Positions 11,801-42,294 of a DNA stretch of 48,431 bases are shown here, one piece after another. The notes under the pieces are model-generated. The model searched no databases. It was not told the origin of the DNA and saw only the letters and a program-made list of their open reading frames with translations. Source of the stretch: a virus. Within the stretch, counting starts at the first letter, position 1, and each line of letters starts with the position of its first letter. The translations under genes and the position numbers were made by a program. The stretch lies in the IMG/VR virus record IMGVR_UViG_3300035216_001536, positions 1-48,431 of that record; one strand, written 5' to 3'.

Positions 11801-14800
11801 AAACTACGCAAGTCAAGACTTTCAGGGAAAAGACTTGCAGGGACAAGGGATTTCTAAAACTCAAAGAAAAAGACTAGCAAAAAGTATTAATGGTCAGATA
11901 AAATCCGGAACATTAGTTATAAAGAGCCAACAGGAATTCGCCAAAGAACTGAAAAAACTACATCCAAAACTCTCGCTGCATGCAAGAGGGATTTCTAAAG
12001 CAGATGTTGAAATTCAAAAAAACACCGCCACTCGAAGAACTCTTGGCTCAAGGTTAAAAGCTTCAGCAAAAAGTGTAGGCAGTGGCGTCAGCGGCGCTAT
12101 GGGGGCATGGGGGAAAGCGAATTCAAAGTTTGAAGGGACGAGAATCGGAAAAGCGATTGGTTCAAATGCTGGTCAAATGGGGCTTATGATGGGCGCTCCA
12201 ATGCTCGGAGGAATGCTTCAACAGGGACAAGCAGGAGAAACCCCCCAGCAAAGAGTAGAAAGAATGAAAGGGGGCACGTACCAAACAGGCGGAGCAATGG
12301 TGGGTGTTGGTACTGGAGCGGCAATGGGAATGATGCTTGGGCCTCTTGGCTCGGTTATAGGGGGAGTGATTGGCGGAGTTATGGGCTTTGCTGGAGCGCT
12401 GGAAGACGCGGAAAAGGCCGCACTTCAACTTGCCGAATCTCAAGCAAAGGCGAACGCAGCGGGAATGATGTCTAGCATATCATTAGCCTTGCAAGCTTTA
12501 CCTCCAAAAACTTTAAATCAATTCGGTCCAGAGCTGAAAGTTTTAGCCGAAGGAACCAACCCTAAGAATATTAGCGACAACGATACTTTTGAACAAGTGG
12601 ACTTATTAAAAAAGATGCTTAGTGCGCCCGAAGTTGATCAAGACAAAAAAATCAAAATTGACGAAAAAGTGTTGGAAACAATAGGTTTAACAAATACTGG
12701 TGGAATTGCAACAGTCGGTCAGATAGGAAAAAGCGTTTCAGGTATAAAAGAAAAAATTCGCAAACAGAGCGATTTCGATAAAAATCTCGACGGTTCCGCG
12801 GAGGAGGGCGACCTAAAAGCAAACCAAAGCCACAAAAAAGAACTTCAAGAAGGCTTGCTTACGCTTTTGGTCGCCTTAAATGCAGATACCCAGATAAGTG
12901 CTCAAGCAGAAAAAGCAAACAGTCAGGCTGTGATCAAGAGGCTGAATCTTCAGAGAGCTGGATTGAAATTCCAAGAAAAACTAAATAAAGATTTATCTTT
13001 AATGAAGATCAAAAGCCAAAAAAGCCTTTCCATATACTCTTGGGTCGAAAAATTCGGCTTACAAGGGAACGCTATCATTTCTAGCCAGATTAAGTTTGCA
13101 AAAGCTATGGATAAGTTGACGAAAGATATGGAGATTTCTAATTTTTCAGTCGAGCAAAAACAGGTTATTGGCGCTGTAGATATGATATCAAAAAGCACTG
13201 GGTCAAATATTGATTCAGACCTAAAACAGTTTCTTTCCAACCCAGAAAAAATGAGCGGCATAACGGGCATTGATAAACAGACTCTTGACCATATTACGCA
13301 GCTAAGAGAGTTAACCGATGCCGATTACACAACCATTTTGCCCGAATTAAATTACGATCAAGTGCTCGAAGTGCTCGAAAAAATTGGCGAAACTAATCGA
13401 GACGCACTAGATGTAAGAACTAAGATGATAGACAAAACCGAGTTGGAGAAAAAAGCTTTAGGTAGGATATTAAAAGAAAAAAGCTCCATGCTCATCATAG
13501 ATAACAAAATAAACAGCAAGCATTCGGAGAGGCTAGAGCTCCAAAAGAGCATAACTCGAGAAATTTCCGCTCAAAACGAAAAAATTAAATCACAGAACGC
13601 CCAAATAGATATATCCCGAAAGATAGCAGACTTGAAATTTAAAAACGCCAACCCATACGCAACCAAAAAGCAACAGACTGAATACGATATTGGAAGCCAG
13701 GAGCAGCGCTTGAATCAAGATTTACTAACAGATTCCGCAGCTTCTTCAAGGCGCATTGCGGATAAAATTGAAGATATATACAAGAAGCTTGGATCGGTAG
13801 CTCCCAAGTCTCTCCTCGATGCTAGAGCACGCGGCGACATGGGAAAAGTAGAGAGTGAGATTTCAGAAAAAAAATTAAGGCCCTTGCTGACGGATAAAAA
13901 CTTAAACGCTAAAAAACAAGAAATGCTTAAAACAAGGGTGCATGCCGAGAATTTTTTATTAAGCCCAGAGCAGCTCGAGCTTATAAAAACAGAATATGAA
14001 GGATATAAAAATCAGGGCGCTGATATGACAATCGGTAAGCCCTTGGGATTAACTAATCAATTAAACAGTCACAACGAGGCTTATGAAAGAGTAACCGAAA
14101 TCAAAAAACAAAGCCACGAACTCGATAAATTAGCTAAAATGAGCGAAAAACAAAGATTAAAACTTGTTAAAGAACTCCTTGGAAACCTTGACGAATCCAT
14201 AGTAAGCGAAAAGGATATTTTAAAACTCAAAAAACAAAATAATGAGGAAGCAAAAAAAGCCGCAAAACTAGCTCTTCCTGGAGGCAGCGCTAAGGGGTTT
14301 GCTCGCGCAAAAACAGCCGCCGCAAATAGACTAGACTTTTTCGACGAAACCTTTGCTGAGGACATGACTAACAATTTTAGAGACGGCCTTGTTGATGGAA
14401 TGCAAGCAGCAATAAACAAAGCCGATGACTTGAGCGATGTTATGAATAATATTGCAATGAATTTTCTTGGAGCAATTCAACAAGCTTACCTTGGAAAAGC
14501 TGCCGATGCAATCGTTGGAGCTTTACCGTTTTCTAGCGGAGGAGGAGTAAGAAAATATTCTAAAGGAGGCGGAGTTCCTGCAATGGTTACTGATGGCGAA
14601 TACGTTATGGGGCGCGACGCTGTGAAAAAATACGGTGGCGGATTCATGCATCGCCTTAATGCGGGAGGAAAGCTTCCAGGGTATTCAAATGGAGGAAAAC
14701 CGGACGAGACTCAGCCAGGATCTGCTCTCGCTGCAAATTTTGGAGGAGGAGAAGGTTACAACACAGGAAGAAGATATCAAACTCAAGCAATGTCTGGATT

Positions 14801-15656
14801 TTTCTATAGCGGACAATCTGGAAACTTAGGGCTTCAAGAGGATACTCAATATACAAAAGGTATTATTCAAGAAAGAATGAGGAAAGAAGCCGAGAAAAAA
14901 GCCAAAAAAAGAGCTTTAATGCAAATGATCGTAGGTACCGCTTTAAGCGTTGGGATTGGATCTCTTGCAAGTGCAGCTGTTGGAGGTGGGGGGCTAACTG
15001 CTAATGCAAAAGCAGATGGCTACACCAATGCGACTCCAGCAGGTGTGAAATCTGCGACGCAAGGAGGCATGAAATATAGCCTTTTGCCTGGCGCTGATGC
15101 TACCGGATTTGATAACGTACAAAGCACAAGAAGCTTTAATCCTTTTAAGGTTTTTGGTTCATCAAGCGTAGACGATTACGGTTCTCCACTGGCCGAGGAG
15201 TTCTCCTCGGCATACAGAACTGGGGCTTATAGAGGAGGGAAAATCAATGGTTATGCCAACGGCGGCCACATATCCGGCAAGTCTGGAATCGATCAAATTC
15301 CCGCAATGCTCAGCGAGGGAGAGTATGTAGTTCGCGCAAGCAGCGCTCGTCAACTTGGCAAGCCAATGCTTGACCGAATCAACGCAGGAAAATTTAATGA
15401 TGGTGGAGCAGTAACTCCCTTAACAGAAAGCTCAGAAACTGGAACTTCTGGAGGAAATACAAATAATATTAACATAACGGTTAATATGGACAAGGGAAGT
15501 GGAAAGTCAGAAAAAAAAGATGATAAAGGAGGAGCTAATCCAAAAGATTCATCGGCGGACCAAGAAAAAAGCTCACAGCTAGCAGAGAAAGTAAAGAGCC
15601 AAGTCATTTCTGTGATAATGGAAGAACAGCGACCAGGAGGCTTATTAAGTGACTGA
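8823..15656 (+). CDS. Tail tape measure protein
   Basis: 2277 residues, the tail length ruler and a probable DNA-injection protein. Residues about 40-330 match the TP901-type tape measure core (SANAVKALTAAMNTYG, ARQGLTMEESLKRTRDALIL, GKVIGNSFKTIFTRIGRTDT). Hydrophobic stretches lie near 420-445 and 1155-1200 (Gly-rich, MVGVGTGAAMGMM). An insert at about 540-1000 carries four copies of an IPNFA/IPNYA/VPNYA motif, at about 540, 622, 926 and 988. A long charged helical part covers about 1250-1850. Two copies of a motif common at tape measure C-termini (GGGVPAMVTDGEYVM near 1915, IDQIPAMLSEGEYVV near 2150) precede the Lys-Asp-rich end. At roughly 0.15 nm per residue the tail could be up to about 340 nm, less if the insert is not helical. 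Its stop lies three bases before the next ATG. Confidence 0.93.
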   Translation: MSINLNVTGNTQPLEAAVNAAINRIRKTPIKITVDDKGATQPLGNMKRGADEFSKSMEAANSRIIAFGASMAIINGVADGFKALVKNVVEVEKALADINVVMNLSTANLEKFSNGLFKTAKETGAAFNIAAEAATEYARQGLTMEESLKRTRDALILTRLTGMDSANAVKALTAAMNTYGDQIKDTTQLVSKFAAVDVKFAVSAEDFADAISRTGQAARSAGVDIDELVGLVTAAQQKTARGGKVIGNSFKTIFTRIGRTDTLNQLENLGIAVRDLEGNTIGARRILTDLANTFDHLTESQKAQIAQTVGGVFQINILKAVLSDAAKQNGILANATQISAGATTEAIDKNDQLRQTMSAMATETGLALKELSAQIGEIMLAPGMEKVLNVFKGLAEGANEMLGGGESTGSDFAQGFLKGLGNIITGPGLVVISAVFIKLFAKALVYANQSLKSLIGVTSEAHKQKAIQTSLVTLFGQNAAISKEMLRTDISRTEKEKIILGLLKAQVVEANMLNSVSKSVAASLYTKGYNASLAPRKGRSGGHIPNFADPERAQAARGGYAAGTIRSMDMPGQGSVIYNSAEKVKNFKGMSQPAIMPPHSSKAGKNYQQAFGDVHGFDPYAAGGYIPNYAKSGAHIAKSDGRSIINDDKSMVVFAASTDRGGKYAGINDEKNNIFSIKPKDKGFVHSSDPMAGYSKGGGVATDEDFDGFSLVNVPYFGISEKDKQIGEHKDFQSLINKRLIDAGRKVAGEISTKIFGKNYSVRKLEEGDVAAASGNVFEAAIMALQDTVAEEARKKDPGKNSLLDIPRPGRNKLWDIFGAGGFGSGGAEAKIALGGSGKIGSHLKSAAEKFYKIETRGADAFTRKKTTGSKTSGLQGFINQKGGEKDSRVGKGKSRMIANWPTSREGDLDSLRAEYDSLPKNRAYGHIPNFADPLSDAIGRETAAGVPVSQIRVGSHPALMGKSNPIGLGVTNTHDEPNGLRDVIGAAGGFVPNYASQDFQGKDLQGQGISKTQRKRLAKSINGQIKSGTLVIKSQQEFAKELKKLHPKLSLHARGISKADVEIQKNTATRRTLGSRLKASAKSVGSGVSGAMGAWGKANSKFEGTRIGKAIGSNAGQMGLMMGAPMLGGMLQQGQAGETPQQRVERMKGGTYQTGGAMVGVGTGAAMGMMLGPLGSVIGGVIGGVMGFAGALEDAEKAALQLAESQAKANAAGMMSSISLALQALPPKTLNQFGPELKVLAEGTNPKNISDNDTFEQVDLLKKMLSAPEVDQDKKIKIDEKVLETIGLTNTGGIATVGQIGKSVSGIKEKIRKQSDFDKNLDGSAEEGDLKANQSHKKELQEGLLTLLVALNADTQISAQAEKANSQAVIKRLNLQRAGLKFQEKLNKDLSLMKIKSQKSLSIYSWVEKFGLQGNAIISSQIKFAKAMDKLTKDMEISNFSVEQKQVIGAVDMISKSTGSNIDSDLKQFLSNPEKMSGITGIDKQTLDHITQLRELTDADYTTILPELNYDQVLEVLEKIGETNRDALDVRTKMIDKTELEKKALGRILKEKSSMLIIDNKINSKHSERLELQKSITREISAQNEKIKSQNAQIDISRKIADLKFKNANPYATKKQQTEYDIGSQEQRLNQDLLTDSAASSRRIADKIEDIYKKLGSVAPKSLLDARARGDMGKVESEISEKKLRPLLTDKNLNAKKQEMLKTRVHAENFLLSPEQLELIKTEYEGYKNQGADMTIGKPLGLTNQLNSHNEAYERVTEIKKQSHELDKLAKMSEKQRLKLVKELLGNLDESIVSEKDILKLKKQNNEEAKKAAKLALPGGSAKGFARAKTAAANRLDFFDETFAEDMTNNFRDGLVDGMQAAINKADDLSDVMNNIAMNFLGAIQQAYLGKAADAIVGALPFSSGGGVRKYSKGGGVPAMVTDGEYVMGRDAVKKYGGGFMHRLNAGGKLPGYSNGGKPDETQPGSALAANFGGGEGYNTGRRYQTQAMSGFFYSGQSGNLGLQEDTQYTKGIIQERMRKEAEKKAKKRALMQMIVGTALSVGIGSLASAAVGGGGLTANAKADGYTNATPAGVKSATQGGMKYSLLPGADATGFDNVQSTRSFNPFKVFGSSSVDDYGSPLAEEFSSAYRTGAYRGGKINGYANGGHISGKSGIDQIPAMLSEGEYVVRASSARQLGKPMLDRINAGKFNDGGAVTPLTESSETGTSGGNTNNINITVNMDKGSGKSEKKDDKGGANPKDSSADQEKSSQLAEKVKSQVISVIMEEQRPGGLLSD

Positions 15657-17456: not shown

Positions 17457-19745
17457 ATGACAATCTCCGCTCCAGGCTCAGACGTTTCTGAAGGAAGAAT
17501 GGGTAACCTCGTTAATTATAGCGGAGTTTTTCAGACCGGACAAAATTACGAACAATTTGATTTTGTTTATGCCACGGGCGATGGATTATATTATTACGCA
17601 AAGCAAAATATGGTTTTCGGTGGCGGAGTCTCTGTCTCAGACGATCAAAGATTTACATTACTACCTCACGAAGTCGCAGCTAATTCTCACTATATTATTG
17701 ATGAGTTTAATAGGCCCGACGATCTAAACGCAACATTTAAACCTGGGAACATAATAAATATAGCTGGGTCTACTGGATCTAGCGATGGGGCTTATTCTAT
17801 ATTAAATATACAGAAAAATTACACAAGCACCACTGTTCAGGGCTTAACTGGCGCAGCAATAAAAATAAAGGGGACATCCGAAACTAGTTTTATAGAGAAT
17901 TACGAACCTTCCTCTGCTAATGTTCTAACAATCTCAACAATCAATGCGTTCCCTGAATCTAATCCAGATTTATGGACGAGTAATAAGTTTTTTTACGACG
18001 CAGATTATGGATCGACGGTCAATTTTAGAGCGAATAATATAAAACACGAATATGGAAATGGCTACTATACCCTGCAGCCAAAAGGAATAAACGCATTAAC
18101 TTTTGAGGTTGATTTAAAATTCGACAACAGAACGAATAAAGAAGCTAATTCTATAATACATTTCGTAGAAAATCATTTGGGACAGTTAGAAGTCGACTCT
18201 TCTTCTCCTAATCTCAAATACAAACAAGGAATATCAGGGTTTCGGTGGGATGGGAACGCGATGTTTAACCCTTATCGGTCAACAGAAAATGAAACTAAAA
18301 CTTTTTATTGCTCCGAGTTTAATCACGCTTTAAGTTTTGAGAATAGTAATAATATAAGTTTAAAACTCAGAAACTTAGACACCTCTTCATTGAGAAAGTC
18401 TGAGCAGTTATTTATAAGGAAAGCCGAAACGTTTGATCCGACAATGGTTTACGAAAAAAATGATGTAGCTTTTTACACTGGCAGTCATTCATATTATTAT
18501 TGGCATAGCGATTCAAGCACCAGTAATAAAGCTCCCGCAGAGATAACTACAGGATTTAACGGCAGGCTTGATTACAAAAAAGATTTACACACAAGCTATT
18601 GGACTCGCGATTTCTTTTGGAAGCCATCTCTAGGGCTAAGCGTTAATCAAAAGCCAAGAATGAACGAAATAGAATTAGGGGGATACCTTCAGATTTATAA
18701 CGACGGTATAAACGAAAGCCTTTTAAATTTAGATTTGCAGTTCAATAATAGAGATGACGAAGAAGCTTACGCCATACTTCATTTTCTTGAACAAAAACTA
18801 GGACACCAGCCTTTTAATTTTACCCCTCCGGCCCCATATAATAGAAAGCAAAATTTTGTATGCCAAGAGTGGAGCCATACTTACAATTACAAAAATAATC
18901 ATAGCATATCCGCTAAATTCGAGCAGTTTCCATTTAATATAGATGGGGAGGATTTTACTAATTTAGATACGCCCCCCGATTTGGCAGAAGGAGAGTTAAT
19001 ATTTACATCTCCAATGTCGTTTTCGATCAAAGATCAAGGAGAGCAAATAATTCCTGGAGAGAAGGGTAAGGCTAGAGTTAAATTAATGAATATAGGAGAC
19101 AAACCTTTAACTTTAAATACTGCAGAAGCTATCGAGAGAGAGATTGGAACTTTTTCGATTATAGGTCAAAACTCAAGCGCGGGCGTCCCCTTTATTGGCG
19201 ACGGGCTTGATAGGGGGGATTATATATACGATCTTCCATCTGCAGGTTTTCCTTTCGGGCTTAACGGCAAAACGATTAAACTAAGCAAGTCCTACACTCC
19301 TGGCGTTAGCGATGGCGGTCAGATTTTTACGGTGGTTACAGGTTCTCCCGGTAATTACAAATCAGAAATAGTCAATTCGGTTCCAAATGTTTTTTTTCAA
19401 AATAATAGGGGGCAAATAAAGTCTGGAGTGAGCGAACCGTTTAATACTGCATACAGAGAATGCGATAAGTTTGCAGTTGAAAATTTCTTTATCAATAACC
19501 AAAAGAGCACAATAGAAGGAGGCGAAGAAGGTTATATTGATATTGAATTTTTCGGAATTAACGATTCAGATGTGAATGTTTTGTTAATTGATCAAGATTC
19601 TCATCAAATTATAGACGGTAATTCAGATAATATTCTTGTAGCACTTACGGATAGATACTATTTTGGGGATCTACACATAAGGAGTACAGCATCAAGCAGC
19701 CTTCAGGTAGGCGAATTAAAAATATTCGTCGCAGCAGAAAAATAA
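17457..19745 (+). CDS. Tail tip protein with two gpM-like domains
   Basis: 762 residues. Two copies of a domain related to lambda minor tail protein gpM occur at about 202-305 and 404-498. The second is clear: DLQFNNRDDEEAYAILHFLE, then FTPPAPYN, FVCQEWSHTY and SISAKFEQFPF, parallel to the EEATVLESFLEEHGG, WTPPYEW, TCAKW and AEFEQ pattern of gpM. The first copy has NRTNKEANSIIHFVENHLG and FYCSEFNHALSF. Each copy is preceded by a similar Tyr-rich module (VYATGDGLYYYAKQN; AFYTGSHSYYYWHS). Near 525-560 an immunoglobulin-like stretch follows (KARVKLMNIGDKPLTL), then a beta-rich C-terminus. Lambda gpM has about 109 residues, so this is a doubled and extended form. It is separated from its neighbours by two bases on each side and has no SD. 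Confidence 0.75.
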   Translation: MTISAPGSDVSEGRMGNLVNYSGVFQTGQNYEQFDFVYATGDGLYYYAKQNMVFGGGVSVSDDQRFTLLPHEVAANSHYIIDEFNRPDDLNATFKPGNIINIAGSTGSSDGAYSILNIQKNYTSTTVQGLTGAAIKIKGTSETSFIENYEPSSANVLTISTINAFPESNPDLWTSNKFFYDADYGSTVNFRANNIKHEYGNGYYTLQPKGINALTFEVDLKFDNRTNKEANSIIHFVENHLGQLEVDSSSPNLKYKQGISGFRWDGNAMFNPYRSTENETKTFYCSEFNHALSFENSNNISLKLRNLDTSSLRKSEQLFIRKAETFDPTMVYEKNDVAFYTGSHSYYYWHSDSSTSNKAPAEITTGFNGRLDYKKDLHTSYWTRDFFWKPSLGLSVNQKPRMNEIELGGYLQIYNDGINESLLNLDLQFNNRDDEEAYAILHFLEQKLGHQPFNFTPPAPYNRKQNFVCQEWSHTYNYKNNHSISAKFEQFPFNIDGEDFTNLDTPPDLAEGELIFTSPMSFSIKDQGEQIIPGEKGKARVKLMNIGDKPLTLNTAEAIEREIGTFSIIGQNSSAGVPFIGDGLDRGDYIYDLPSAGFPFGLNGKTIKLSKSYTPGVSDGGQIFTVVTGSPGNYKSEIVNSVPNVFFQNNRGQIKSGVSEPFNTAYRECDKFAVENFFINNQKSTIEGGEEGYIDIEFFGINDSDVNVLLIDQDSHQIIDGNSDNILVALTDRYYFGDLHIRSTASSSLQVGELKIFVAAEK

Positions 19746-19747: not shown

Positions 19748-20827
19748 ATGGCAAAAGCAGAATCAAACTTTAATAAACAACTAATCTCAATAACTCCCGA
19801 TTCGGTCGTGGATATGTACGAAATTGACTTTAGCAATCTTCAGTCAAACTTTGAAATGCTTAAGGATTTATACGGAGTTAATCTAGGCGCGGATCCTATA
19901 TATAGGTTTTCTCCAATGAAAAACTCAAGCAACCCTGTTTATTGGCAGGGTAACGCTTACCAGCCTTTGCCTGTAAAAATGGAAGGTTTCGAGACTCAGT
20001 CAGACGGAAGACTTCCTAGGCCAACAATATCAATAGCTAACCCCGAAGGGCTTTTGTCTAAAATCGTTAGATCCAATAAGGATTTTGCTAATTGCAAAAT
20101 AACCAGAAAAAGAACTTTCGTTAAATTTCTTGATGACGAAAACTTTCAAAATAGAAATCTAAATGAATCAGGCAAGAACCCTTTTGGAGAATCCGATCCA
20201 AGGTCACATTTTCCTGATGATGTATTTTTCGTAAGCAAAAAAACAGTGGAAAACAAAAACGTAATTACTTTCGAACTTGTTTCTTCGCTAGAGCTTCAGG
20301 GTTCAAGCGTTCCTGCGAGAATAGTCATGCCGTCTCATTGCTCTTGGATGTATAGATGCTCTATTGGTTGTGGCTACAAGGGTTTAGCTATAGAAGATAC
20401 CGAGGGTAGAGACCTAACTCAGAAGTACCCTCATGATCCTTACAACAATGGGTTGGGGGATATTCCCAGATGGAGTAAGCACGGGCTCTTGGATAACAAG
20501 CTAGTTCCTGGCGGATACGACTCTGGCAATTTGGTAAAAATCATTCCCCAAAGCTCATCTGACCCTTACAAGTCAACCCCTGTTGTTTTTTTATGCATAA
20601 AAACTCACGCTATCGCATCTGATCATATACCATTTTTTGACATCAATCACTGGGTAAAAGACGAATGTCAGAAAACAATAGATTCTTGCAAGAAAAGATT
20701 CTCTAAGTCTCATAAAGATTCTCTAGGCGGATCTAGAGATATTACCGATTATAACAAAGCAAACATAACTCATGGAGGATTAAGGTTTGGGGGTTTCCCT
20801 GGTACAGAAAGATATCCATCTGCATAA
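19748..20827 (+). CDS. Tail tip protein gpL-like, iron-sulfur type
   Basis: 359 residues, longer than lambda gpL (about 230). The N-terminal half has VDMYEIDF, a RFSPMKNSSNPVYWQGNAY segment and PRPTISIANPEG, typical of gpL. The Cys cluster HCSWMYRCSIGCGYKG lies near residues 197-210. A second pair, C-x6-C in DECQKTIDSC, is near 306-313. The end is GLRFGGFPGTERYPSA, like the FGGFPG end of the family. Lambda gpL binds a [4Fe-4S] cluster through four Cys and these positions match that layout, with about 95 residues inserted between the pairs. It sits between M-type and K-type genes, as in lambda. Its end overlaps the next gene by 41 bases. Confidence 0.88.
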   Translation: MAKAESNFNKQLISITPDSVVDMYEIDFSNLQSNFEMLKDLYGVNLGADPIYRFSPMKNSSNPVYWQGNAYQPLPVKMEGFETQSDGRLPRPTISIANPEGLLSKIVRSNKDFANCKITRKRTFVKFLDDENFQNRNLNESGKNPFGESDPRSHFPDDVFFVSKKTVENKNVITFELVSSLELQGSSVPARIVMPSHCSWMYRCSIGCGYKGLAIEDTEGRDLTQKYPHDPYNNGLGDIPRWSKHGLLDNKLVPGGYDSGNLVKIIPQSSSDPYKSTPVVFLCIKTHAIASDHIPFFDINHWVKDECQKTIDSCKKRFSKSHKDSLGGSRDITDYNKANITHGGLRFGGFPGTERYPSA

Positions 20828-21143
20828 AGCTATACTTAAACAGGTTAAGGCTTATTGCTTGGGTTCTTTAATAGAAGAAAGGTGTGGATTGATAGTTGAG
20901 TCCGCTTCAGGTATGAAGGTTGTATCCTGCAAGAACGAAAGCTCTTTTCCTGAATATCATTTTATGATTAATTTAAATATTTTTATAGAAAATAAAGTTT
21001 TATATGTTTATCATTCTCATGTGAATTGCTCAGTTAAACCATCTATTACAGATAAGCTATATTCTGATGAATTATGTATCCCGTTTTTGATCTACAGTAT
21101 TAGGGATGATGAATTTGGTATATACGATAATATAAGTGTATAG
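20787..21143 (+). CDS. gpK-like tail assembly JAMM peptidase, without NlpC/P60 domain
   Basis: 118 residues from a TTG at 20787. GGAGG at 20774-20778 stands eight bases before it, the best-spaced SD in the tail operon, and the only in-frame ATG (residue 43) would remove the catalytic Glu. The metal-binding JAMM motif is complete: Glu30/31 in IEERCGLIV, His76 and His78 in YHSHV, Ser86 and Asp89 (H-x-H-x7-S-x2-D). Lambda gpK has this JAB/MPN domain followed by an NlpC/P60 domain; here the second domain is absent and the gene ends 21 bases before the I-J fusion. A zinc isopeptidase or peptidase acting in tip assembly is expected, with the adjacent ubiquitin-like gpI domain as an obvious substrate candidate. 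Confidence 0.85.
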   Translation: MGVSLVQKDIHLHKAILKQVKAYCLGSLIEERCGLIVESASGMKVVSCKNESSFPEYHFMINLNIFIENKVLYVYHSHVNCSVKPSITDKLYSDELCIPFLIYSIRDDEFGIYDNISV

Positions 21144-21164
21144 TTATTTAAGGTTTAAGGTCAA

Positions 21165-24100
21165 ATGAAAACGGTATATTTATATGGAAAGCTTGGAAAA
21201 CGCTTTGGTCGAAAGTGGAGCTTGAACGCGGACTCAGCTGTGGAGGTTTTTGCCGCTATAGAGGCTAACAAAGAAGGGTTTCTTGAATACCTCGCTACAA
21301 GCCAAAGGGATGGTGTTGAGTACGCTGTTTTAAATAAATCCCCAATCAATATTTCTTCAAAAAAAGAATTAAAAAACCATATGATCTCCGAGTCTATGGT
21401 CGAAATAAAGGACAAGAAGCAAGAAATGCATATTGTTCCCGCGCCGCAAGGTAACGCGGTCGCCATAAGCTCCCTCTTTGTAGTCGCCGCGACTGGCAAA
21501 TTAACTCTTCTTGGTAAAATAGTTGTGGCTATTGCTGTGTCTTTTGTTGTTGGAGCTATAATGAAAGCGTTGTTTAAGCCGCCCGAAAGAAAGACCCCCA
21601 CAACAACAAAATCTTATTTGCTCAGTGGAATGTCCAATAGGCAAAGCCAGGGCGTTGCGGTGCCTTTGGGTTATGGAAGATTAAAAATAGGTTCAACAAA
21701 TATATCTCAACACAAAATATCAAAAACAAAATCCGTACCTGGGAAGCCTCATGTTTTGGAATCTTATACTGAAATAGAGTTTTTGGATTTATTAAGTGAG
21801 GGTCCGATAGATGGGCTTTGTGATCAGAATGGGAACTTAATAAACCTTAATCGTTCTAGCATTGTTGAGAGACTAGTGCAGAAGATCTTGGGTCATGACC
21901 TTCGGGAGGGTATTTTTTTAAATAATGTACCCGTTGTAAATACCCCAATAAGCGAAGCCGAGGTTGGAACTGCGAATTATATACTCAACGAAAACGGCGA
22001 GCAACCTGTAATAAAAAAAGGAGAAGAAAAGGATACCTTAATTATTTCAGATTTTAATTGTTTTGTGGTTGAGCATGGCGTATTATTATACGGAGCTGGA
22101 CCTTACACAAACAACGAAAAAAAGGCTGAGCATAGAGACAGTGCGTCATCCGCAAAGGAAAACGGTGCCAAAATAGCGGCCCATTTTGTGGCAAATAAAA
22201 ACGTTAATAAAATCCGAATCGAAATGAATACAAGCTTATCGATACAGAATAATGACGGATCTAACCAAAGCAACAATGTTCAATTTGTAATATTAATGGA
22301 GAAGGACTATGTCGAACATAACGTTTTGTCTTCAAGCTCTGGATGTACGGTTAGTTTTGATGACACGTTGGGAGCTATAACAACAGACGAAAGCTTCAGT
22401 AAAGACTTCGAAAAATATGTAGATGATTATTCTGACTTGCTTGCTAATTTTGCGACCCATGGAAACGGAAGAACTAAAGCTCAGTATGGATCGGACCACT
22501 GGGTAGCTAATGGCAAAGCCGAGGGTAGATCAATTACAAACACAAACGGTAGCAAGTTTATAGTTGAAGGTCTTTGTACTTCACTCTACGCTTTTGATAT
22601 TGTTATCAACTTCGACCGACCAAGAATAAGCTCCAGAGGTATCACTTTTAAATTAATAAAACTAAGCAATGAATACGACCCCTCCATAAAAGGAGCTTTG
22701 GGGGGCATAGGTAGAGACAGAAGCTTGAAGTTGTCTTCTGTAGCTGAATATGTAGAAGAGCCTTTGCTTTATCCTCATAGCGCTATCGTGAAACTCAAAT
22801 TTGACAGTAGGAATTTTTCTAATTTACCTGACAGGTCTTATCATGTGAAACTAAAAAAGGTTTTAATTCCTTCGAATTACGACCCAATATCAAAACATTA
22901 CGACGGTGCGTGGAATGGATTATTTAAAGGTCAGCCAGATTCTGCTTCGTCTATACATTCTATTGATGATGATGATAAATATTGGACAGATAATCCCGCT
23001 TGGGTTTTTTATGATTTATTATCTAACGCTAGATATGGGCTTGGTAAATATGGTTTGTATGAAGAAAATATTGACAGATGGCAACTATATAAAATATCAA
23101 AATACTGCGACGAATTAGTTAGAACCGATTACGAAATAGAAACCTCCTCAAATTCTCCTGTGAATTTTACATCCGAAGTTGATTCAAGCAGTAGCCCAGA
23201 CTCTTTTAGTATAACTATAGACCAAAGCTCGTACAGCTCCGGTGATTTTATTAAGGATTTTGGGACAGGGAATCAGTTTAAAGGCAAAAAGATAGCTTTT
23301 TTCGTTCCATCAAGAAATCAAGATATTGCAGCTTTAACCGGGACAAAGAAAAGCGAAGCTATACAAAAATTACAGTTAAGAGCCTCGCAATTATCTGGTG
23401 AAATAAAAATAGAACAGAGAGATATTATATCAAGCAATCCAGATAAAAATGGAGGAGGCACCCTCGTTATCTCAGGGCCAGATTTAAGAGACTTAAGCTC
23501 ATCGTTCCAAGAAGGGGGCTCCATTAAAACTATTGGGGGCTGCGCAGTTCAAATTAATCATGCTATAGTTGAACCAAGATTTACCTCTAACTTGTATATA
23601 ACTGACGAAGGAGAAGCTCTTCAATCTGTTAATAATATAGCATCTATATTTAGAGGGATTACCACTTTCTATAATGGGAAAATAATGGCGATTCAAGATT
23701 CATTTAAAAATCCTATTCAATTATTTAATAATTCAAACGTAAGCCGAGACGGCTTTTTATACTCTGGAGTAAGTAAAGATCAAAAAGTAACAAGTTCTAT
23801 TGTTAGATACAATAATAAGGACGACAGTTTTAAGCCCGCAACTGTTCAAGAAGAAGATAAGGACGCAATTAGAACTTTCGGATTTAAAGAAAAGGAAACT
23901 TTGGGGTTCGGTATAACATCCTCTAGTCAGGCCAGAAGGCTTGCTAAGTGGGTTTTGTATACCACTCAACTAGAAACAGAATCTGTTTCTTTTGAGACCT
24001 CCGCCGAAGCTTCGTATTTATATCCCGGATCAATTTTCGAAGTTTCAGACGAAATGAGAGTGGGCAAGTCGAAAAGCGGTAGGGTTTTAGATATAAAATT

Positions 24101-25979
24101 CTATAGAAAGCAATACGAATTTGAGCAGTCTGGAGCAGATAGATTACTCAAAAATTCTTTTGATGTTTATCTTCCATCTATATTATTAGATAAGCATATG
24201 TTTGATGAGCCATTTGTATCTATGATTGAATTAACAGTATGTACTGGGCTGGGCAACTCTACGGAGGAAAAATTAAATTTAAGAGCCCCTTTTGAGCGAT
24301 CCTCTCTTGATCAAGATGCTGAAATAGAATCCGTTTCAGTTCCTCAAATAATTAAGTTTGAATGCTCTATTGCATACGACTTACATATGGCAGAAAAGGG
24401 CCCACAGGGGCAGAATGTAATAGCATATAATTTTTATTTAAAAATTCCTTTTGAGATATCTTTATCCGATAATACGTTTTCAATATTTAATCATGGCTTT
24501 GTTGACGGTGATAGAATTAGATTCACAACCGAGGGATCCATCCCTTCTGGCTTGAGTATGGGCAGGAGTGGGAGTACCGCTTATTTCATAAAAGACTCAA
24601 CAAAACACACTTTTAAAATAAGTTTATCTGCAGGGGGCGGCGAAGTAAACGTTTCGAGCCAGGGTTTAGACTCTCTCGGAAACAGCGGCGGCTTGCATTA
24701 CATATGCCCAGAAGACGAAGAGAAAACAAAAGAAGCTTTAACCAAAATAATGATCGGCTCATCTTGGAGCGCTAAGGGTGTAATGGCAGCAAAAACAGAC
24801 GAAGAGCTCGAGGCAGTTATTACAGATAAACTACAATTAACGTCCCCGTCAGTCGTAAGGCCAGGGTGGAAGATCTCATCTTGGCTTGGTTGGGTTTTGC
24901 TCTTTGGAAATGATTTTGCGTATAGCCCACTATTAGGTTGGGTGTTCCTTGGAGAGTTAAAAAAATCTTCGGGAAACAGTGGGTTTTGGTTTTATACTTC
25001 ATCTGCACAGAATTCTGATTCTAGCGGTTGGATATGGACTAACGATTCTATTAAGGAAACTTTTTGGTATTTTTATTCATTATCTTCTGAATCTGATACC
25101 GCAAGCGGCTGGGTTATACCCTTTTTTAATGATGAGCAAAATCTAGTCGAGTTTTTTGTTTATGATTCTGATCTTACAAAACAAGTCGGAAGCAGCTATA
25201 TTTTAAATAAAAACAAATATATTATAATCCAAAAATATTCTACCATTGACTGTAAGGGGTATTTTATTAGAGCCTCAATCAGCGATGCAGGGAACAAAGT
25301 CGCGCGCGGAAGCTCAAACCTAGCTAACTCTGGCCCTTCAGATCTCGGCGGGCTAAGCCTTAACGAAAGAAGAAAAACTCTTACTGAGTCAGGTTATTAT
25401 AAGGAAATAAGCATAGAATCTTTTGATTTTTTAAACGAAGCTTCTTCATTGCAAGCTCAGGAATCCATAAGAATAAACCTTAGCGAAACCCATTCAGAGA
25501 TTATAAAAGATGGCCAAGAAGTATTTATTGAAGACGTAACAGATTCTTCTGGGGATTTTGATGATTATATAAATAATGTTTATGTGTACGATAATACAGA
25601 TAAACGATGGACGACATCAGTTAACCCCTGGATCTTAATTAAGATAAATGATTATCAATTTGAATTAACAAACTCCTCTACTCTTGCATCCAAACTAAGC
25701 TCTGGCAATATAACATCCTATGGGGAAATCAATTTCACTCCCCCTCCTGTTTCTGAGACAGAAAGATCTTTAGAGGGGCAATTATTTAGGACAATGAGTG
25801 TAACAGAGAAAGCTCAGAATAAGTATGAAATTGTTGGTCTTGAATATAATCAATCTAAATTTGACGCAGTTGATAAACAAACAGTTGTGCGGCAGCCAGT
25901 TATGCCCATACCCCCTCAGGCGGATATGAGAATACCTGAGGCTCCTGACACTTTAATATTAACCGATTTGACAATATAA
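21165..25979 (+). CDS. Fused tail tip protein gpI-gpJ
   Basis: 1604 residues. Residues 1-95 match the ubiquitin-like domain of gpI (YLYGKLGKRFGRKWSL to MHIVPAPQGNAVA; lambda has IHIVPRVAG). Residues 100-137 are hydrophobic, then SYLLSGMSNRQSQGVAVPL and YGRLKIGS match the end of gpI. From about 200 the protein continues as gpJ (EIEFLDLLSEGPIDGL, WVFYDLLSNARYGLG near 620, GFKEKETLGFGITSSSQARR, ending with EKAQNKYEIVGLEYNQSKF). In lambda I and J are separate genes. A Trp-rich cassette is inserted at about 1230-1330 (SSWLGWVLLFG, LGWVFLG, GWIWTND). The far C-terminal part of gpJ is in the next gene. Start after AAGG; no membrane anchor role is implied for the hydrophobic stretch, which gpI also has. 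Confidence 0.88.
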   Translation: MKTVYLYGKLGKRFGRKWSLNADSAVEVFAAIEANKEGFLEYLATSQRDGVEYAVLNKSPINISSKKELKNHMISESMVEIKDKKQEMHIVPAPQGNAVAISSLFVVAATGKLTLLGKIVVAIAVSFVVGAIMKALFKPPERKTPTTTKSYLLSGMSNRQSQGVAVPLGYGRLKIGSTNISQHKISKTKSVPGKPHVLESYTEIEFLDLLSEGPIDGLCDQNGNLINLNRSSIVERLVQKILGHDLREGIFLNNVPVVNTPISEAEVGTANYILNENGEQPVIKKGEEKDTLIISDFNCFVVEHGVLLYGAGPYTNNEKKAEHRDSASSAKENGAKIAAHFVANKNVNKIRIEMNTSLSIQNNDGSNQSNNVQFVILMEKDYVEHNVLSSSSGCTVSFDDTLGAITTDESFSKDFEKYVDDYSDLLANFATHGNGRTKAQYGSDHWVANGKAEGRSITNTNGSKFIVEGLCTSLYAFDIVINFDRPRISSRGITFKLIKLSNEYDPSIKGALGGIGRDRSLKLSSVAEYVEEPLLYPHSAIVKLKFDSRNFSNLPDRSYHVKLKKVLIPSNYDPISKHYDGAWNGLFKGQPDSASSIHSIDDDDKYWTDNPAWVFYDLLSNARYGLGKYGLYEENIDRWQLYKISKYCDELVRTDYEIETSSNSPVNFTSEVDSSSSPDSFSITIDQSSYSSGDFIKDFGTGNQFKGKKIAFFVPSRNQDIAALTGTKKSEAIQKLQLRASQLSGEIKIEQRDIISSNPDKNGGGTLVISGPDLRDLSSSFQEGGSIKTIGGCAVQINHAIVEPRFTSNLYITDEGEALQSVNNIASIFRGITTFYNGKIMAIQDSFKNPIQLFNNSNVSRDGFLYSGVSKDQKVTSSIVRYNNKDDSFKPATVQEEDKDAIRTFGFKEKETLGFGITSSSQARRLAKWVLYTTQLETESVSFETSAEASYLYPGSIFEVSDEMRVGKSKSGRVLDIKFYRKQYEFEQSGADRLLKNSFDVYLPSILLDKHMFDEPFVSMIELTVCTGLGNSTEEKLNLRAPFERSSLDQDAEIESVSVPQIIKFECSIAYDLHMAEKGPQGQNVIAYNFYLKIPFEISLSDNTFSIFNHGFVDGDRIRFTTEGSIPSGLSMGRSGSTAYFIKDSTKHTFKISLSAGGGEVNVSSQGLDSLGNSGGLHYICPEDEEKTKEALTKIMIGSSWSAKGVMAAKTDEELEAVITDKLQLTSPSVVRPGWKISSWLGWVLLFGNDFAYSPLLGWVFLGELKKSSGNSGFWFYTSSAQNSDSSGWIWTNDSIKETFWYFYSLSSESDTASGWVIPFFNDEQNLVEFFVYDSDLTKQVGSSYILNKNKYIIIQKYSTIDCKGYFIRASISDAGNKVARGSSNLANSGPSDLGGLSLNERRKTLTESGYYKEISIESFDFLNEASSLQAQESIRINLSETHSEIIKDGQEVFIEDVTDSSGDFDDYINNVYVYDNTDKRWTTSVNPWILIKINDYQFELTNSSTLASKLSSGNITSYGEINFTPPPVSETERSLEGQLFRTMSVTEKAQNKYEIVGLEYNQSKFDAVDKQTVVRQPVMPIPPQADMRIPEAPDTLILTDLTI

Positions 25980-25983: not shown

Positions 25984-28900
25984 ATGTTATCTACCGCAAT
26001 AGGAATTCAATTCGATGTAAATGACCTTAACGCTAATTACGAAGTGGTTGGGTCGTCCAATAATTACTCATTTCAATACGACTTAGGAAAAGGAAGCAAG
26101 CTTGTAGATTTTGAAGGAGAGACTGCTCAAAAAACCATATCGTTAAATGGTAATTATGGCATTTTTTCGATTAGGATATTTGCTGTAAGCGACGTAGGTA
26201 TTCGTTCTGAATTTATTGAGAAAAACATATCCATTAGCCCTCCTTTATTTGATGACACTTTTACCTTTTCCGAGATCAGAGTTTCAAACCTTCCGGAAGA
26301 TTCAAATATAGGAAGTACCATCGAAATAGAACCTTCTGAAACTGGTAATTTATTAGCAGTTAATTCTGAATATATTAATAGGAATGTAGAAATAGAATGG
26401 AGGCTGTCCCCTCCTCCAGGCCACGCTAAAGAAGGAAAGTCGTTGGGTAATGAATTGCTTAGCGATAAGCTCTTAAGTAACTTTTCTCTCCAGATTAGGA
26501 ACACAGAAAACGGTAATGTAATATCTGATAGCCAGCTAAATAACTCGATAGCTCTTAAGTCAACACTTAACACTGCCTCCGTGTCTGATACGATGGACGC
26601 TTATACGGGTTTTTCTTTTACAGTGTCAAATGACACCATAACAGAATTAAGTCTAGATAGAACTCTCGCGTTGGAAGTTGTCTCTAACGACGCATTTGGT
26701 CGTCAAGCAACCGGGGTATTGACTGGAATAAATTATTTACCTACGGTTGATTCATTAAGCTATAATTTAAGGGGGGCGAAAATGTCTTTTAGTTGGTCTG
26801 CTCAAGACACTGATTTTTATGCAGCTCGAATCTCGTCCCTTGCTATTCCTGGTGACGAAGAAATATACGATCCTTATAACCTTCAGCAAAGCATAGATCA
26901 TTACGAAAGTCTGAGCAGGGCTCCTATTTGGGAAAAGCACAATAATTATAGAGTCGGAGATAAAGTCGTTCACAATTCAATTGTATTTGAATGTATACAA
27001 AATTACATATATTCCAGCTTTCCAAATATAAATACAAGCGACACTAGCTATTGGACAAATATAGGGCCAGTGATAGACCATTCTTTTACTCAAGAAGATG
27101 TAACTCAAAACAATAAAGAATTTAATCAAATATGGGGATATAATCATTATTATTCTTTCGTGCCTATTGACGGTTATGGTACAGGAGTAAGAGACAATCT
27201 AACTGAAACTGGTTTACATCCAGGGGGCGCGTTAGCTTATTTTAAGTCTGATGTCAAAATCGATAATTTAAATTTTATAGAAAGAGAAGACGATTTAATA
27301 TTTAGATGGAATATAACTGATCAAGATAATAATTTAGTAGATTTAAATCAATATAAATTTTTAGTTGGCGCAACTGATAAACCTACTATTCTTGGTATAA
27401 GCGGATCTTTGTACGATAGTGATACGAATTCATTTCTAACTGGAATAACTGAAGGCTTGAATTCTAGAACGTCTGTAACCGAAAATGGGGTTGAAAATAT
27501 ATCTGAAGATCTTCCTGGAACAAAAGTTTTTGAGACTTACGAATATACGAGAACTATAAACAACTCAATTTATAAAGTTGGGGGTTTTCCTGAGAGCAAA
27601 GATTTTTCTTTTTCTGGCCAGTATAATAATGGCGATCATATAATATTCGATAACTCACTATATAGGGCAACTAGCGAAACCGCCAGCAACTCTTTTAGGT
27701 TAACCACTCCTTCTATAGGAGCTTGGGACTCTAGCACAAACTATTTATTCAGAAGCGGTTTAGACTGTTCTGATTTGCTTACTTATCAGAGCGGTGTTTA
27801 TTCTGTTGTTGGGTCTGTTAATAATGAAATTATTGGTCCGGACGCTAGCGATGTTGTTGGATTATACAATGAGCTTGAAAGCTATTCCGTTGGGGATTTA
27901 GTCATATCTCCAGACGGTTTAATCGAGATTTATAATGGAGGAAAGTTTTTTGATGTTGGCGATGCTGTTTTGCATGAAGGTTCTTTATATAAATGCCTTA
28001 CCCAGCAGGAAACTTCTGACTATATATCCCCGGGCACCGGAATAAAGCACTGGGGGAACGCTTCGGCTTTTTCGGATGTTTCTGCATCTATTTATAAAGC
28101 CACAAGTCCGGTACCACAGTCTTCAGAAATACTCCCTTCTACGGGAAGCGCTCATTGGCAGGTCCAAAACCCAGATACATCCAACAAATATTATCTACTC
28201 GCTGAGGATTATGATTTTCCGGTTCGTAATTGGTCTGAGTTCGATGATTTTTCTAGCTTTGATTTTGTTGCATACGCTAACGATATATGGAGCGGAGTTG
28301 ACTCAAGCGGCCCAAACACATCTGCGGGAGCAAAAGCTCCAAGCTTGGCAAATGGCAATTATTGGGTTAACACCGACAACCAGTCAAACGACTTCTCAAC
28401 AAGTCACCAAGTTGGGGATAAAGTTTTTTCTAACGGAGCTATATATAAATGTTTAGCTAACAATCCGACGGGGGCGCCTCTTGAAGCTGTAGTCGACAGC
28501 ACTTCGCAAATAAACTCTTCATATCAATCGTCCCAGTGGATTCCTTATTGGGAGTTAAATACGGGCTTTGAAAATACAATTTTTAAACACGAAGGTATTC
28601 CAGAAAGCGGAAAAAGAAGCGTCGGTCTTAAGTTGGCGATTTTAAGCCCTTTGGGTGAAGTTTTAAGTTCAAGGAAGATTGTTGGAAATAACCCAGAGCC
28701 AAGTATATTGCCGCAAGGTTTTCAGGTTGATTCGTTGAGTAATGTAACCCAGGTTCATTTTGATTTCAATTATTCTTATGGCTCAAGAGAACAGACGAAG
28801 AAGGTTCAGGTATATAGATCTAGCGATCCAGTTTTTTCAATACTAGATTCGAATGGTTTTCCTGGTTCTGGGGCGGGCTCTTTTGTGTCAGAGATATTAG

Positions 28901-31900
28901 GGCCTGGAGAATCTACGTTTGGGGAAAATATCACATCGATCACTGACTCGCCTCCAATACCAAACGTCTCAGGTTTGGGGGATCAAATAACTGGTTATTA
29001 TTACAAGCTGCTACCTTTTGATGCTTTTGGTAGTGGTGATTTGTTTAATGTAGTAGATAATCAAGGAGATCTTGAGCGGGTTTTGGTTTATCCTCATGGA
29101 TACAACAATCAAAACAAAAATGGATACATGGGTCCTGTTTTTTCTACAAACGAAGATGCAATTCCCGGACCAGTTAAGGATTTTAAGGGAGACACTGCCT
29201 TTAAGAATTATTTCTTGAACTGGAAAATGCCCGATGCTGAATTCGATTCTGTAAACAATATAATAAACACCTCTCCAAATGACATAAGCCACTATGAAGT
29301 TTGGGAGTCAGAGGATAATTATCTTTACTTCGGCGCTGAAGACACCACTCTTGACGAAACAAGGAATCTATCTGGATACAGAAGAATAACTGGAGATCTG
29401 GCCAGCCTTGGACCGATACCTAGCGAAATTAATGACCCAGCTTTGGGAATAACTAACGCAACAAACGTTTTAAACATTTCGGCGATATCTCCAAGCGTAC
29501 AAGTAACGCATCAAGGGGAGCCTAATGACAAAAGATATTTTTGGGTTAGACCTGTAGATCACGCAGGCAACAAAGGCCCATTTACTGGTGATGCTGACCT
29601 GGGATCTTCTAGTGATGTTATAGGTTTGGACTTAATTTTGGGGCAAGCTAGCACTACAGATGTTTCAGATTTTGAACAAAACATAACCAAGACATTTCCT
29701 AATACTCTGGCTTTGGTTCCAAATAACCCTTTTACAGCTAACCAGCCATACGGAGGAGAAGTTGCGTGGGACCGACATTTTGTATATAGTGACGGAGTTG
29801 GTTATGTTATTGGACATAGCGACACTCACGAATTAAAGACTAGTCAGGGATTAAGCACGGCCAAATATATTTATTGGAAAAGAAGTGATATGTCCAGCTT
29901 ATCTACCGAACAGTACTCGATCCTAGGGCTTGCTCCTCCAGGCGATAAAGTTGTCCGGCTGATTGACGCGGAAATAGATGGAACGCAAAATATAACCAAT
30001 AATCAATTTTCTATTAAAGAAACCAATTATGATTTAGGGGTAGCTAATCAATACAATAATCATTATATTCGATTTAAGAATGGTTTACTGGACACTCAGG
30101 AGAGAAAAATTTCTAATTATCAGAAGTTTGCTAATTACGCAACAATAACTCTAGACAGGTCGCTTTCTCTGTCTCCTTTGAATGGTGACGATATAGAAAT
30201 TCTGGAAGAGGTTTCCGTAAGCTCTGCTATCACGAACCCCCTTCGCAGTATTCAATTCTCCGGGCAGTACAGAGTTTCTGATTATCATCCAGCTGGAGAA
30301 GGAGAAACAAACAACCCGAATGGTTACGCAGGGCCAGACATGGATTTGGAAAAACCAAGCCTGCTTGATGATAATGATTTTATAATCGCAAGGAATGCTG
30401 GGGGGACCCCGACCCCGATGTGGCACGCTTTTGCGAACGCAACGATAGGTACGGCCCATATAGAAGAAGCTGCGATAACTAATGCAAAAATACATAATTT
30501 AACGGCCGATAAAATAAGATCCTCTGTAATACAATCTCAAGATATTCAGGTCGGCGGGGACAGTAATAGCGGACAAATCAGAAGCGCTGGTTTTGGATTG
30601 CTAAACGATGTAGGCGGATATGGATATGATTGTGTGGACGCTCCAGGAGCAGGCTTTGCGATCAGCGGAAACGGTTCTTTTATTTTTAAAACAGAAAGGG
30701 GCAAGTTGTTTTTTGAGGAGGACGAGTTAACTATTCACGGAAATATAAGACAAAAGGACGGCTCCGAGTTGACCGTAATGTCAATGAACGCAGAGCCTGC
30801 GGTTTTTAATTACGATGAGACTGCGGATGGCGTTTTTGATCCAGAGCTACTTCAAACTTCAAACATTACCGTAAGATTTAATAATAGCGATATTACCGCA
30901 AGCGACGTTAGGTTTAAAATGGAACTTCCGGATGGAACTAACATATTTAATTATACTGACTATTCAAATGGTTATAATGCTTATGGCTTTGAGTACCAAC
31001 CAAGCAATACTTATTTCAATTCAGACACTAAGGTTGCAACCGCTACGTTTAAAGTTGGGGATAGAAAAACCAACATCGATCCAGGTTTTGATAAAATCAT
31101 TCACGGAACTGATGATGTTATTGACTTTCAATCTGTTATCATATACGCTTCTGGCATAGGCACCAGCACCGAACATTCAACAACAGTAAGCATGCTTGCG
31201 AATGGATCTCCTGGACCAACAGGAAAAACACCTGTTTATAGAGGGGTCTGGTCCGCTTCGGCGAATTATATCGGAATGGAGGATGGCAATCAAGGATCCG
31301 ACACGGCAGAGGAATTGAGGGGAGATTTAGTTTATTACGATAATTCCTCATCTCCAGCAGGAGCAAATGGGCATCATTATATAGCTATGAAAAATAGCGG
31401 GCCGTCGAGCTTGGTTGTAGCTCCAGGAACGCATGCTCAAACAGACGATTATTGGAAGAAATTCGGAGCCGAATTTCAAAGCGTGGCAACTAATTTACTG
31501 CTTGCGGACGATGCGGTCATAACTCATAGCTTGACTATGGGAAGTAGCGACGATGATAATCCAGCAACCCATGGAGCGGGTGGAAAAATCGTATCTTCTC
31601 AGTTCTTGGGTGGATTTAATGATGCATTGACAGATTATCGAATTCCAGAAGATTATTCGAAAGCGGGTTTTAGATTACAAAAATCAGCAGTTGCAGATGC
31701 CGGCAGTGTTTATAACGTGGCTCTAGATGTTGGTGGGCCAAACTCATATTTTAGATATAGTAGTATAGAGGACAAGGTGGAAATAAAAGGAAGCTTTATA
31801 AATAACACAGTAGCTGAAAATATTAGCGAAGGAGCAATTACAGCAACCGACTCTCAAGCAACTTTTATTGGCGGCGGCTATAATAATGAAATTCATGAAG

Positions 31901-33247: not shown

Positions 33248-34027
33248 ATGACCAATCACTCCCCAGGAACAAACCCAGGCTCAACCCCTACACAATCACC
33301 TAGCGATTATGTTTTGGGGGATGGGTATAATGCTGGAAATTTAATAGCAGCAGGATCAAACAATAAAATACAAGAATCCAGGAGATGTTCAATCATTAAC
33401 GGTGCAGGTAATTTTATACTAGGCAAGTATAATACCCATATTATTGGAGATTATGTTACTCTAGAGGATCCCGACGGAGATGCAAACCCTTCTATAATCA
33501 ATTTTAAAACAACTTTTAACAATACCGGCGCTGGTAACGTTGTACTTGCCAGTAATAATAAATATTATAGAGCTAAGACTTCAACTTCCACAGACCCTGC
33601 TGACATTGCCAACGCTAGTTACTGGGAGTTGATCGAAATACTTAATAACGCTTTTTATGTTGGATGTTTGAATGGATTACATTCTTATGGAGATGTTGTC
33701 GCTTACTCTTCATCAGACGAAAGATTGAAAGATAATATAAGAATTATCAAAGAGCCCTTATCTAAAATCTTATCTTTGGATTCTGTAGAGTTTGACTGGA
33801 ACGAAAAGCAAGAAACTTATAAAGGTCATGATATAGGACTAATCGCACAGCAAGTAGAAAAAGTTGCTCCTGAATTAGTCACCACTCGGGTAAGTGGGTT
33901 TAAGGCTGTTAAATATGAAAAATTAACTTCCCTGCTTGTTGGCGCGATAAAAGAACAGCAGGAGCAGATTAGTGTTTTGAATGACAAGGTTGAGCGCTTG
34001 CTAGAAAAATTTGACTCTATGAGTTGA
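33248..34027 (+). CDS. Fibre tip with S74-type intramolecular chaperone
   Basis: 259 residues. Residues 20-70 are beta-roll repeats (LGDGYNAGNLIAAGSNN, IINGAGNFILGKYN) that continue the pattern of the preceding gene. Residues 156-259 are a peptidase S74 domain: SDERLKDNI with the Ser156/Lys161 dyad, FDWNE, IGLIAQQVEKVAPELV, GFKAVKYEKLTSLLVGAIKE and a closing coiled coil. In this family the domain aids trimer folding and then cleaves itself off before the Ser, here leaving about 155 residues. It lies 16 bases after the large fibre gene, in another frame and without an SD. Its 3' end overlaps the convergent glycan operon by 11 bases. It may chaperone the large fibre in trans. Confidence 0.88.
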   Translation: MTNHSPGTNPGSTPTQSPSDYVLGDGYNAGNLIAAGSNNKIQESRRCSIINGAGNFILGKYNTHIIGDYVTLEDPDGDANPSIINFKTTFNNTGAGNVVLASNNKYYRAKTSTSTDPADIANASYWELIEILNNAFYVGCLNGLHSYGDVVAYSSSDERLKDNIRIIKEPLSKILSLDSVEFDWNEKQETYKGHDIGLIAQQVEKVAPELVTTRVSGFKAVKYEKLTSLLVGAIKEQQEQISVLNDKVERLLEKFDSMS

Positions 34028-34820
34028 TTATTTTCATTAATATCCTTGACTCTGTCGGGGGTATATCTGAATAACTTAACCAATCCTTTACTGAGTCGTT
34101 TTTATATTTTCCAGTCTTCCACCAATCCCTAAGTATAACTTTAAACTCTTCAAAATTAGAACAGTTTAATTTGTCGCTTACAAGGGACTCTATCATGGAG
34201 GATGGAGTTAGCGATCCGCTTGAGGCGTTCGTTGATCCTGTTTGGCTGGATTTATCTATTTCGTCATCCCCTACAATATGAACGTTTAAAAAATTTCTTA
34301 CGCATCTAACGAAAGCTCTATTGCAAGCTATGGTTTCCAGGAACTTAGTAGCAAAGCTGCTGGTGTTATCTAGGGTAGCGTTAGCCATATCTTGAAAGAT
34401 CACTGGCTCTCCAAATGTTTCGTAGTTTGGTAGGAATTTCATTCTGCATACCACAGCAACATGATTTAATTCACACCTAACTGTTTCATATGCGACATCT
34501 GAAAAACCCCTTAACTTTGCAAGCTCCTTTATTCCGCTGAGTTTTATTAATAGTTGGTAATCTTTTAGACCGATTATAGATCTGGGTAAATCTTTTTTTC
34601 TTAAGCTAAACCAAGATTTATTTGGAAAGAGGTTTTCGTCTTTAATCATAGCTCTCCAATTCACAGAGCCATCCTCCGAGAATTCGTAATCTACATTATC
34701 AAGCAATCCAAATTCATTTCTAAGAAATTTACCTGGACCGTCTTTGTAGTTTTTGATATAAACTAAATTACTTTGCTCTTCGTTTTCTGAATTATTTTCT
34801 GATGTCTTTGTTTTTACCAT
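34017..34820 (-). CDS. Conserved phage protein, possible ssDNA annealing/recombination function
   Basis: 267 residues. The centre carries ELAKLRGFSDVAYETVRCEL, HVAVVCRMKFLPNYET, FQDMANATLDNTSSFATKF and ETIACNRAFVRCVRNFLNV followed by IVGDDEI. I remember similar LRG, PNYET and NRAF.R.VRNFL motifs in uncharacterised proteins of marine T4-like phages. The helix with NRAFVRCVRNFL recalls the last helix of Rad52-like annealing cores, which is only a suggestion. A Ser-rich linker (SSQTGSTNASSGSLTPSS) precedes a small C-terminal helical domain with DWWKTGKYKN. It is the last gene of the minus operon and overlaps the preceding gene by 29 bases; nothing links it to glycans. Confidence 0.6.
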   Translation of the reverse strand: MVKTKTSENNSENEEQSNLVYIKNYKDGPGKFLRNEFGLLDNVDYEFSEDGSVNWRAMIKDENLFPNKSWFSLRKKDLPRSIIGLKDYQLLIKLSGIKELAKLRGFSDVAYETVRCELNHVAVVCRMKFLPNYETFGEPVIFQDMANATLDNTSSFATKFLETIACNRAFVRCVRNFLNVHIVGDDEIDKSSQTGSTNASSGSLTPSSMIESLVSDKLNCSNFEEFKVILRDWWKTGKYKNDSVKDWLSYSDIPPTESRILMKIINS

Positions 34821-38438: not shown

Positions 38439-38444
38439 AATGGA

Positions 38445-38474: not shown

Positions 38475-38486
38475 AATAATATTTTC

Positions 38487-40052: not shown

Positions 40053-40056
40053 AGTG

Positions 40057-42291: not shown

Positions 42292-42294
42292 TCT

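Follow-up and report, generated by a model that had tools for sequence, protein, structure and literature searches.

A JAMM-only gpK beside a gpI-gpJ fusion

Does a peptidase of a phage tail cluster cut the protein encoded next to it, and at which bond? This question is raised by IMG/VR virus record IMGVR_UViG_3300035216_001536, which was analyzed from position 1 to 48,431, i.e., over the whole 48,431-nt stretch (hereafter, the window). In its tail region, the gene of a 118-aa gpK (20787..21143, plus strand) precedes that of a 1604-aa protein (21165..25979, plus strand), in which homologs of the phage lambda tail proteins gpI and gpJ form one chain; the codons and domains of both genes given below lie on the same strand. 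The original prediction, made from the DNA sequence of this locus, was that gpK frees gpI from gpJ near residue 195, in a step resembling deubiquitination. Such processing is the most likely function of gpK (PMC1779556, PMC12908700), but a cut near residue 195 found no support in our comparison. We consider it rather likely that gpK cuts after Gly96, inside gpI, so that the ubiquitin-like tag (residues 1–96) would be freed and residues 97–1604 would keep the plug part of gpI attached to gpJ.

The match of gpK to phrog_30 (E-value 6.6e-13) is confined to the JAB part of this family (positions 288–391 of 544), and the Pfam Prok-JAB profile gave a weak hit (18.9 bits, under the 25-bit cut-off). 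The Protein Data Bank (PDB) search with the gpK sequence alone returned no significant match, while its alignment profile retrieved JAMM proteins. The AlphaFold2 (AF2) model of the 118-residue protein was based on 45 sequences and adopts the JAMM fold (mean predicted local confidence, pLDDT, 88.9). Its best Foldseek match in the PDB was Pyrococcus furiosus JAMM1 (6.3e-6), including the complex with SAMP2, followed by AMSH-like, BRCC36, and Rpn11 structures. JAMM1 (5ld9; 5lda with SAMP2) is a small stand-alone JAMM protein solved with a ubiquitin-like partner; it differs from gpK in being a cellular enzyme, with 18–20% identity to gpK, encoded outside any virion assembly cluster.

The residues of the active site are intact. 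Glu31 (within ERCG; codon 20877..20879), the predicted catalytic glutamate, the putative zinc ligands of His76-Ser77-His78 (21012..21020), and the SxxD element from Ser86 to Asp89 (21042..21053) fit the JAMM pattern of Glu and H-x-H-x7-S-x2-D. All six residues (E31, H76, S77, H78, S86, and D89) are invariant in 28 distinct loci of the fused clade, in which identity over the remaining part of gpK drops to about 25%. Over all loci compared, the His-Ser-His triplet is kept in 122 of 122, Ser86 in 119, and Asp89 in 121. No NlpC/P60 domain was found in gpK, and JAB stands alone in each of the 32 fused loci whose upstream sequence was long enough. Relocation of NlpC/P60 was rejected, since neither the window nor three related contigs (74, 140, and 211 kb) gave an NLPC_P60 match. 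The description of gpK as a JAMM-only protein with all metal ligands therefore stands, and gpK is probably a JAMM (zinc) endopeptidase, whose predicted substrate is the ubiquitin-like front domain of the neighboring polyprotein.

In the 1604-residue protein, residues 1–183 match gpI (phrog_32, E-value 6.5e-27) and the later parts gpJ (phrog_31, 1.8e-107); both halves also match the solved gpI and gpJ of lambda, T1, and F2-pyocin. It was thus correctly recognized earlier that gpI is fused in full to the front of gpJ. The chain opens with a ubiquitin-like (beta-grasp) domain (residues 1–96; 21165..21452), modelled confidently to residue 94, resembling Urm1 of Sulfolobus (4wwm), and showing dN/dS of 0.017–0.137 within close relatives. 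A hydrophobic linker whose length varies across the clade (residues 97–135; 21453..21569) leads to the structural, or plug, domain (residues 136–182; 21570..21710), which corresponds to the C-terminal part of gpI in the lambda virion (9e7m; 4e-15 over residues 119–193). Then follow the gpI/gpJ junction (residues 183–198; 21711..21758) and the gpJ hub with the central fibre (residues 199–1604; 21759..25976), assigned by phrog_31 and the lambda and T1 gpJ structures (Foldseek match to lambda 8k35, 1.5e-14). The plug profile ends at about residue 189 and conserved gpJ-like sequence begins at about 198, which agrees with the boundary near residue 195 proposed before.

Lambda shares with this locus the gene order L-K-I-J, the ubiquitin-like front of gpI ending at Gly96, the plug domain, the gpJ hub, and a JAB-bearing gpK. 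It differs in that its gpK has an additional NlpC/P60 domain and that its gpI and gpJ are encoded by separate genes, whereas here a JAMM-only gpK accompanies one chain with a shorter linker. This contrast with lambda had been drawn from the outset and holds, except that the annotated K of NC_001416 holds a partial JAB only. The JAB coding region of that record (14112–14875; L018:2613-3376 in our set) is split over two frames, i.e., L018 2634-2864 with the N-terminal part and 2777-3376 with the annotated K, so the annotated lambda gpK is devoid of the start of its JAB domain.

Distribution and origin of the fused clade

The gpI-gpJ fusion was found in 36 IMG/VR loci (the window included), of which 28 have distinct N-terminal parts; the contigs reach 211 kb. 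Although these loci share only about 25–90% identity, all keep the fusion and the JAMM-only features of gpK, so the fusion is genuine; a sequencing artefact or the loss of a stop codon in this contig alone was ruled out. A separate gpI gene between K and J is absent in the fused clade, and we did not treat it as family-defining, given that fusions had been described in 2006 (PMC1779556).

Enough upstream sequence was available for 110 loci. All fused ones (32/32) encode a JAMM-only gpK, while among the unfused ones 77 encode gpK with JAB and NlpC/P60 and one has no gpK. In 109 of these 110 loci, the ubiquitin-like tag hence occurs together with a JAB-bearing gpK, and for the joint loss of tag and JAMM such a sample has little power. 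The sole exception, the unfused L094:4340-4969, encodes a ubiquitin-like gpI with the conserved glycine, and the genes upstream of it look inserted or rearranged.

In the phylogenetic tree, the fused loci create one group (100/100 support), which indicates that the fusion and the loss of NlpC/P60 are one event each and not 32. The tree program gave a long-branch warning; the "fused" label still needs one change only. Of 95 unfused loci, 17 have the gpJ frame directly behind the gpI stop codon, and therefore a single stop-codon loss can create a fusion. Many loci were retrieved with patterns lying inside gpI, by which fused proteins without the tag would be missed; the loci retrieved through gpJ are free of this bias, but they are unfused. 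Within the part of the phage-collection match list that was inspected, the fusion was not seen in a cultured phage: gpI and gpJ are separate genes in all annotated matches, and the nearest matches to the 211-kb relative were likewise gpI-only.

Gly96 as the candidate cleavage site

Gly96 (21450..21452) is kept in all loci (129/129), both fused and unfused, while the positions flanking it vary. Lambda gpI has the same glycine, also as residue 96. In the AF2 model of the fusion, residues 95–128 have a confidence below 50, i.e., predicted disorder starts at residue 95; it should be stressed that these predictions are of single chains and give no view of inter-domain contacts. By sequence comparison, this predicted scissile glycine inside gpI is the sole conserved candidate cut site.

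In the model that we favor, gpK would recognize the ubiquitin-like front domain of the gpI-gpJ polyprotein and would probably cut this chain after Gly96, giving residues 1–96 and 97–1604, not gpI and gpJ. The plug part would remain joined to gpJ and close the tail tip, an arrangement resembling that of pb3, the baseplate hub protein of T5. In analogy to lambda, cleavage would probably occur only after the tip proteins assemble, and the tag might thus act as an assembly checkpoint. The virion form would probably be a chain of about 1508 residues, with the tag gone and the plug attached to gpJ. The dN/dS values of the tag and of gpK agree with this model. An uncut plug-gpJ chain in the virion is what this model expects; to take a gpI still joined to gpJ as evidence against processing, in line with the original prediction, would mislead. 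With respect to pb3, the likeness is that plug domain and hub are in one polypeptide. The plug of pb3 is, however, inserted within the hub (HDII insertion), a gpL-like domain is included, and the available portion of PMC10721106 describes no front tag.

Neither the mechanism nor the gpI-gpJ fusion is new, since the former was predicted in 2006 (PMC1779556) and reported for lambda in 2025 (PMC12908700). Iyer et al. described the ubiquitin-like gpI, the JAB domain of gpK, and the conserved glycine, and proposed that JAB cuts at the glycine (PMC1779556). The 2025 meeting report (Davidson) states that lambda gpK cleaves the ubiquitin-like domain of gpI (PMC12908700). Both locate the cut at the C-terminal end of this domain and not at the gpI/gpJ boundary. 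In these uncultured phages, tag removal is thus probably a modified form of the step reported for lambda. Gene fusions of gpI with gpJ (TAPI-TAPJ) were noted in some prophages in PMC1779556, again with a predicted JAB cut at the glycine. The TAPK proteins beside TAPI are there JAB+NlpC or NlpC-only, and the available portion of that paper describes no JAB-only gpK beside a fusion.

Data on the lambda virion are consistent with the loss of the tag. In the closed tail, gpI is resolved from residue 101 onward only (PMC11101478), and in another study residues 135–223 were modelled, whereas gpK was not detected by mass spectrometry of the virion (PMC10721106).

The new part of the finding is a natural experiment, in which NlpC/P60 was removed and the substrate was fused to the tail fibre, while the JAMM site and Gly96 were kept. 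Since lambda gpK holds both peptidase domains, its sequence hardly tells which of them serves the tag. Loss of NlpC/P60 with retention of JAMM, tag, and Gly96 points to JAMM as the processing enzyme. The fused clade therefore speaks for tag removal by the JAMM domain alone, with no need for NlpC/P60 in this step, and for a structural part of gpI that can remain on gpJ. Moreover, with gpK as a small enzyme and the fusion as its presumed covalent substrate, a deubiquitination-like step of a phage could be tested cleanly.

Several points weigh against this interpretation. The lambda cleavage result comes from a meeting summary (PMC12908700), and the N-terminal domain of gpI that is unseen in lambda could be present yet mobile. 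The glycine is invariant also where NlpC/P60 is present, so the action of JAMM alone is something we infer. The fused, JAMM-only state represents a single evolutionary event, and retrieval with patterns within gpI biases the sample toward intact tags. Finally, the cut in this phage is a prediction from sequence comparison.

Alternative explanations

It may be proposed that no cut occurs in this clade, the tag being retained and gpK acting as a non-catalytic, tag-binding chaperone. The strong divergence of gpK outside the motif would agree with such a role, and the fusion could render release of the tag unnecessary. However, all five catalytic and metal-binding JAMM residues are invariant, which is more than binding alone demands, Gly96 persists despite its changing flanks, and gpK is under purifying selection (dN/dS about 0.1–0.27 within close relatives). 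We regard this explanation as unlikely.

Cleavage after Gly96 has also to be weighed against cleavage near residue 195, by which gpK would split gpI from gpJ. It would restore the two separate proteins of lambda, and the JAMM enzyme adjoins the fusion gene. The junction itself argues against this: column entropies showed poor conservation, no residue between 183 and 197 is conserved across the 28 distinct sequences, several indels occur there, and no conserved cleavage motif was found. The gpI Tyr-Gly and the gpJ Ser-Glu-Gly-Pro-Ile are 39 residues apart here, versus 29+30 (59) in the two free ends of lambda; the junction is thus compact, which indicates that residues were lost and no linker was gained. 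The AF2 model shows confident strands at 179–189 and 197–211 with a short loop between them, and the site lies away from the end of the ubiquitin-like domain. The junction comprises 16 codons, too short for a reliable dN/dS ratio. Separation is, in addition, unneeded, because in lambda the two proteins associate through beta-sheet augmentation and both remain in the virion (PMC10721106). A cut at the junction was therefore rejected on conservation, length, and predicted order, and the proposal that gpK frees gpI from gpJ is very improbable.

The tag is not the only conceivable target of gpK. In bacteria, ISG15-like systems modify the central tail fibre with ubiquitin-like proteins (PMC11364771). 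gpK could mainly strip such host conjugates (Bil/ISG15-like defence) from the fibre, and JAMM folds generally act on links of this kind. Yet the synteny of gpK and gpI holds for phages in general, the pairing of tag and JAB-bearing gpK is almost constant (see above), and a simpler substrate is available in cis; a counter-defence role as the main function is accordingly highly doubtful. Equally little probability is given to a dual role, in which the JAMM-only gpK would cut its own tag in cis after Gly96 and also remove host defence ubiquitin-like proteins from the central tail fibre. Least probable of all is that the freed tag is activated and conjugated as a phage ubiquitin-like modifier: the glycine does end a ThiS/MoaD/Urm1-like domain, but it is single, with no conserved Gly-Gly, and a phage-coded conjugation pathway was rejected as no ThiF/E1 match occurs in four records of up to 211 kb, though a host E1 might serve instead.

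Gene order and neighboring genes

The tail region runs from the tape measure gene (8823-15656) through those of two further proteins, a gpM-like protein, gpL, and gpK to the gpI-gpJ fusion. The gpL homolog, a tail hub component (19748..20827, plus strand; Pfam Phage_tail_L, 7.9e-45), overlaps the gpK reading frame by 41 bases, and a ribosome-binding site GGAGG (20774..20778, plus strand) is visible in the sequence 8 bases upstream of the TTG start of gpK.

The 762-residue gpM-like (distal tail) protein (17457-19745) contains two Phage_min_tail domains, at about residues 177–242 (partial) and 386–490. As lambda gpM is a single-domain protein forming a hexamer, a trimer of the doubled protein could form an equivalent ring. 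Downstream of gpJ, genes of a 2415-residue protein with a CBM_5_12 (carbohydrate-binding) match (25984-33231) and of a 259-residue protein with an S74 endosialidase-type chaperone domain (33248-34027) are located next to each other. A dense block of sugar genes occupies the minus strand (34017-48114). It encodes glycosyltransferases of the GT1, GT2, GT9, and exostosin GT47 types, a WavE-like LPS gene product, a methyltransferase, and a HAD hydrolase fused to a nucleotidyltransferase (40057-41478), and is possibly involved in glycan decoration of the virion or of the host surface.

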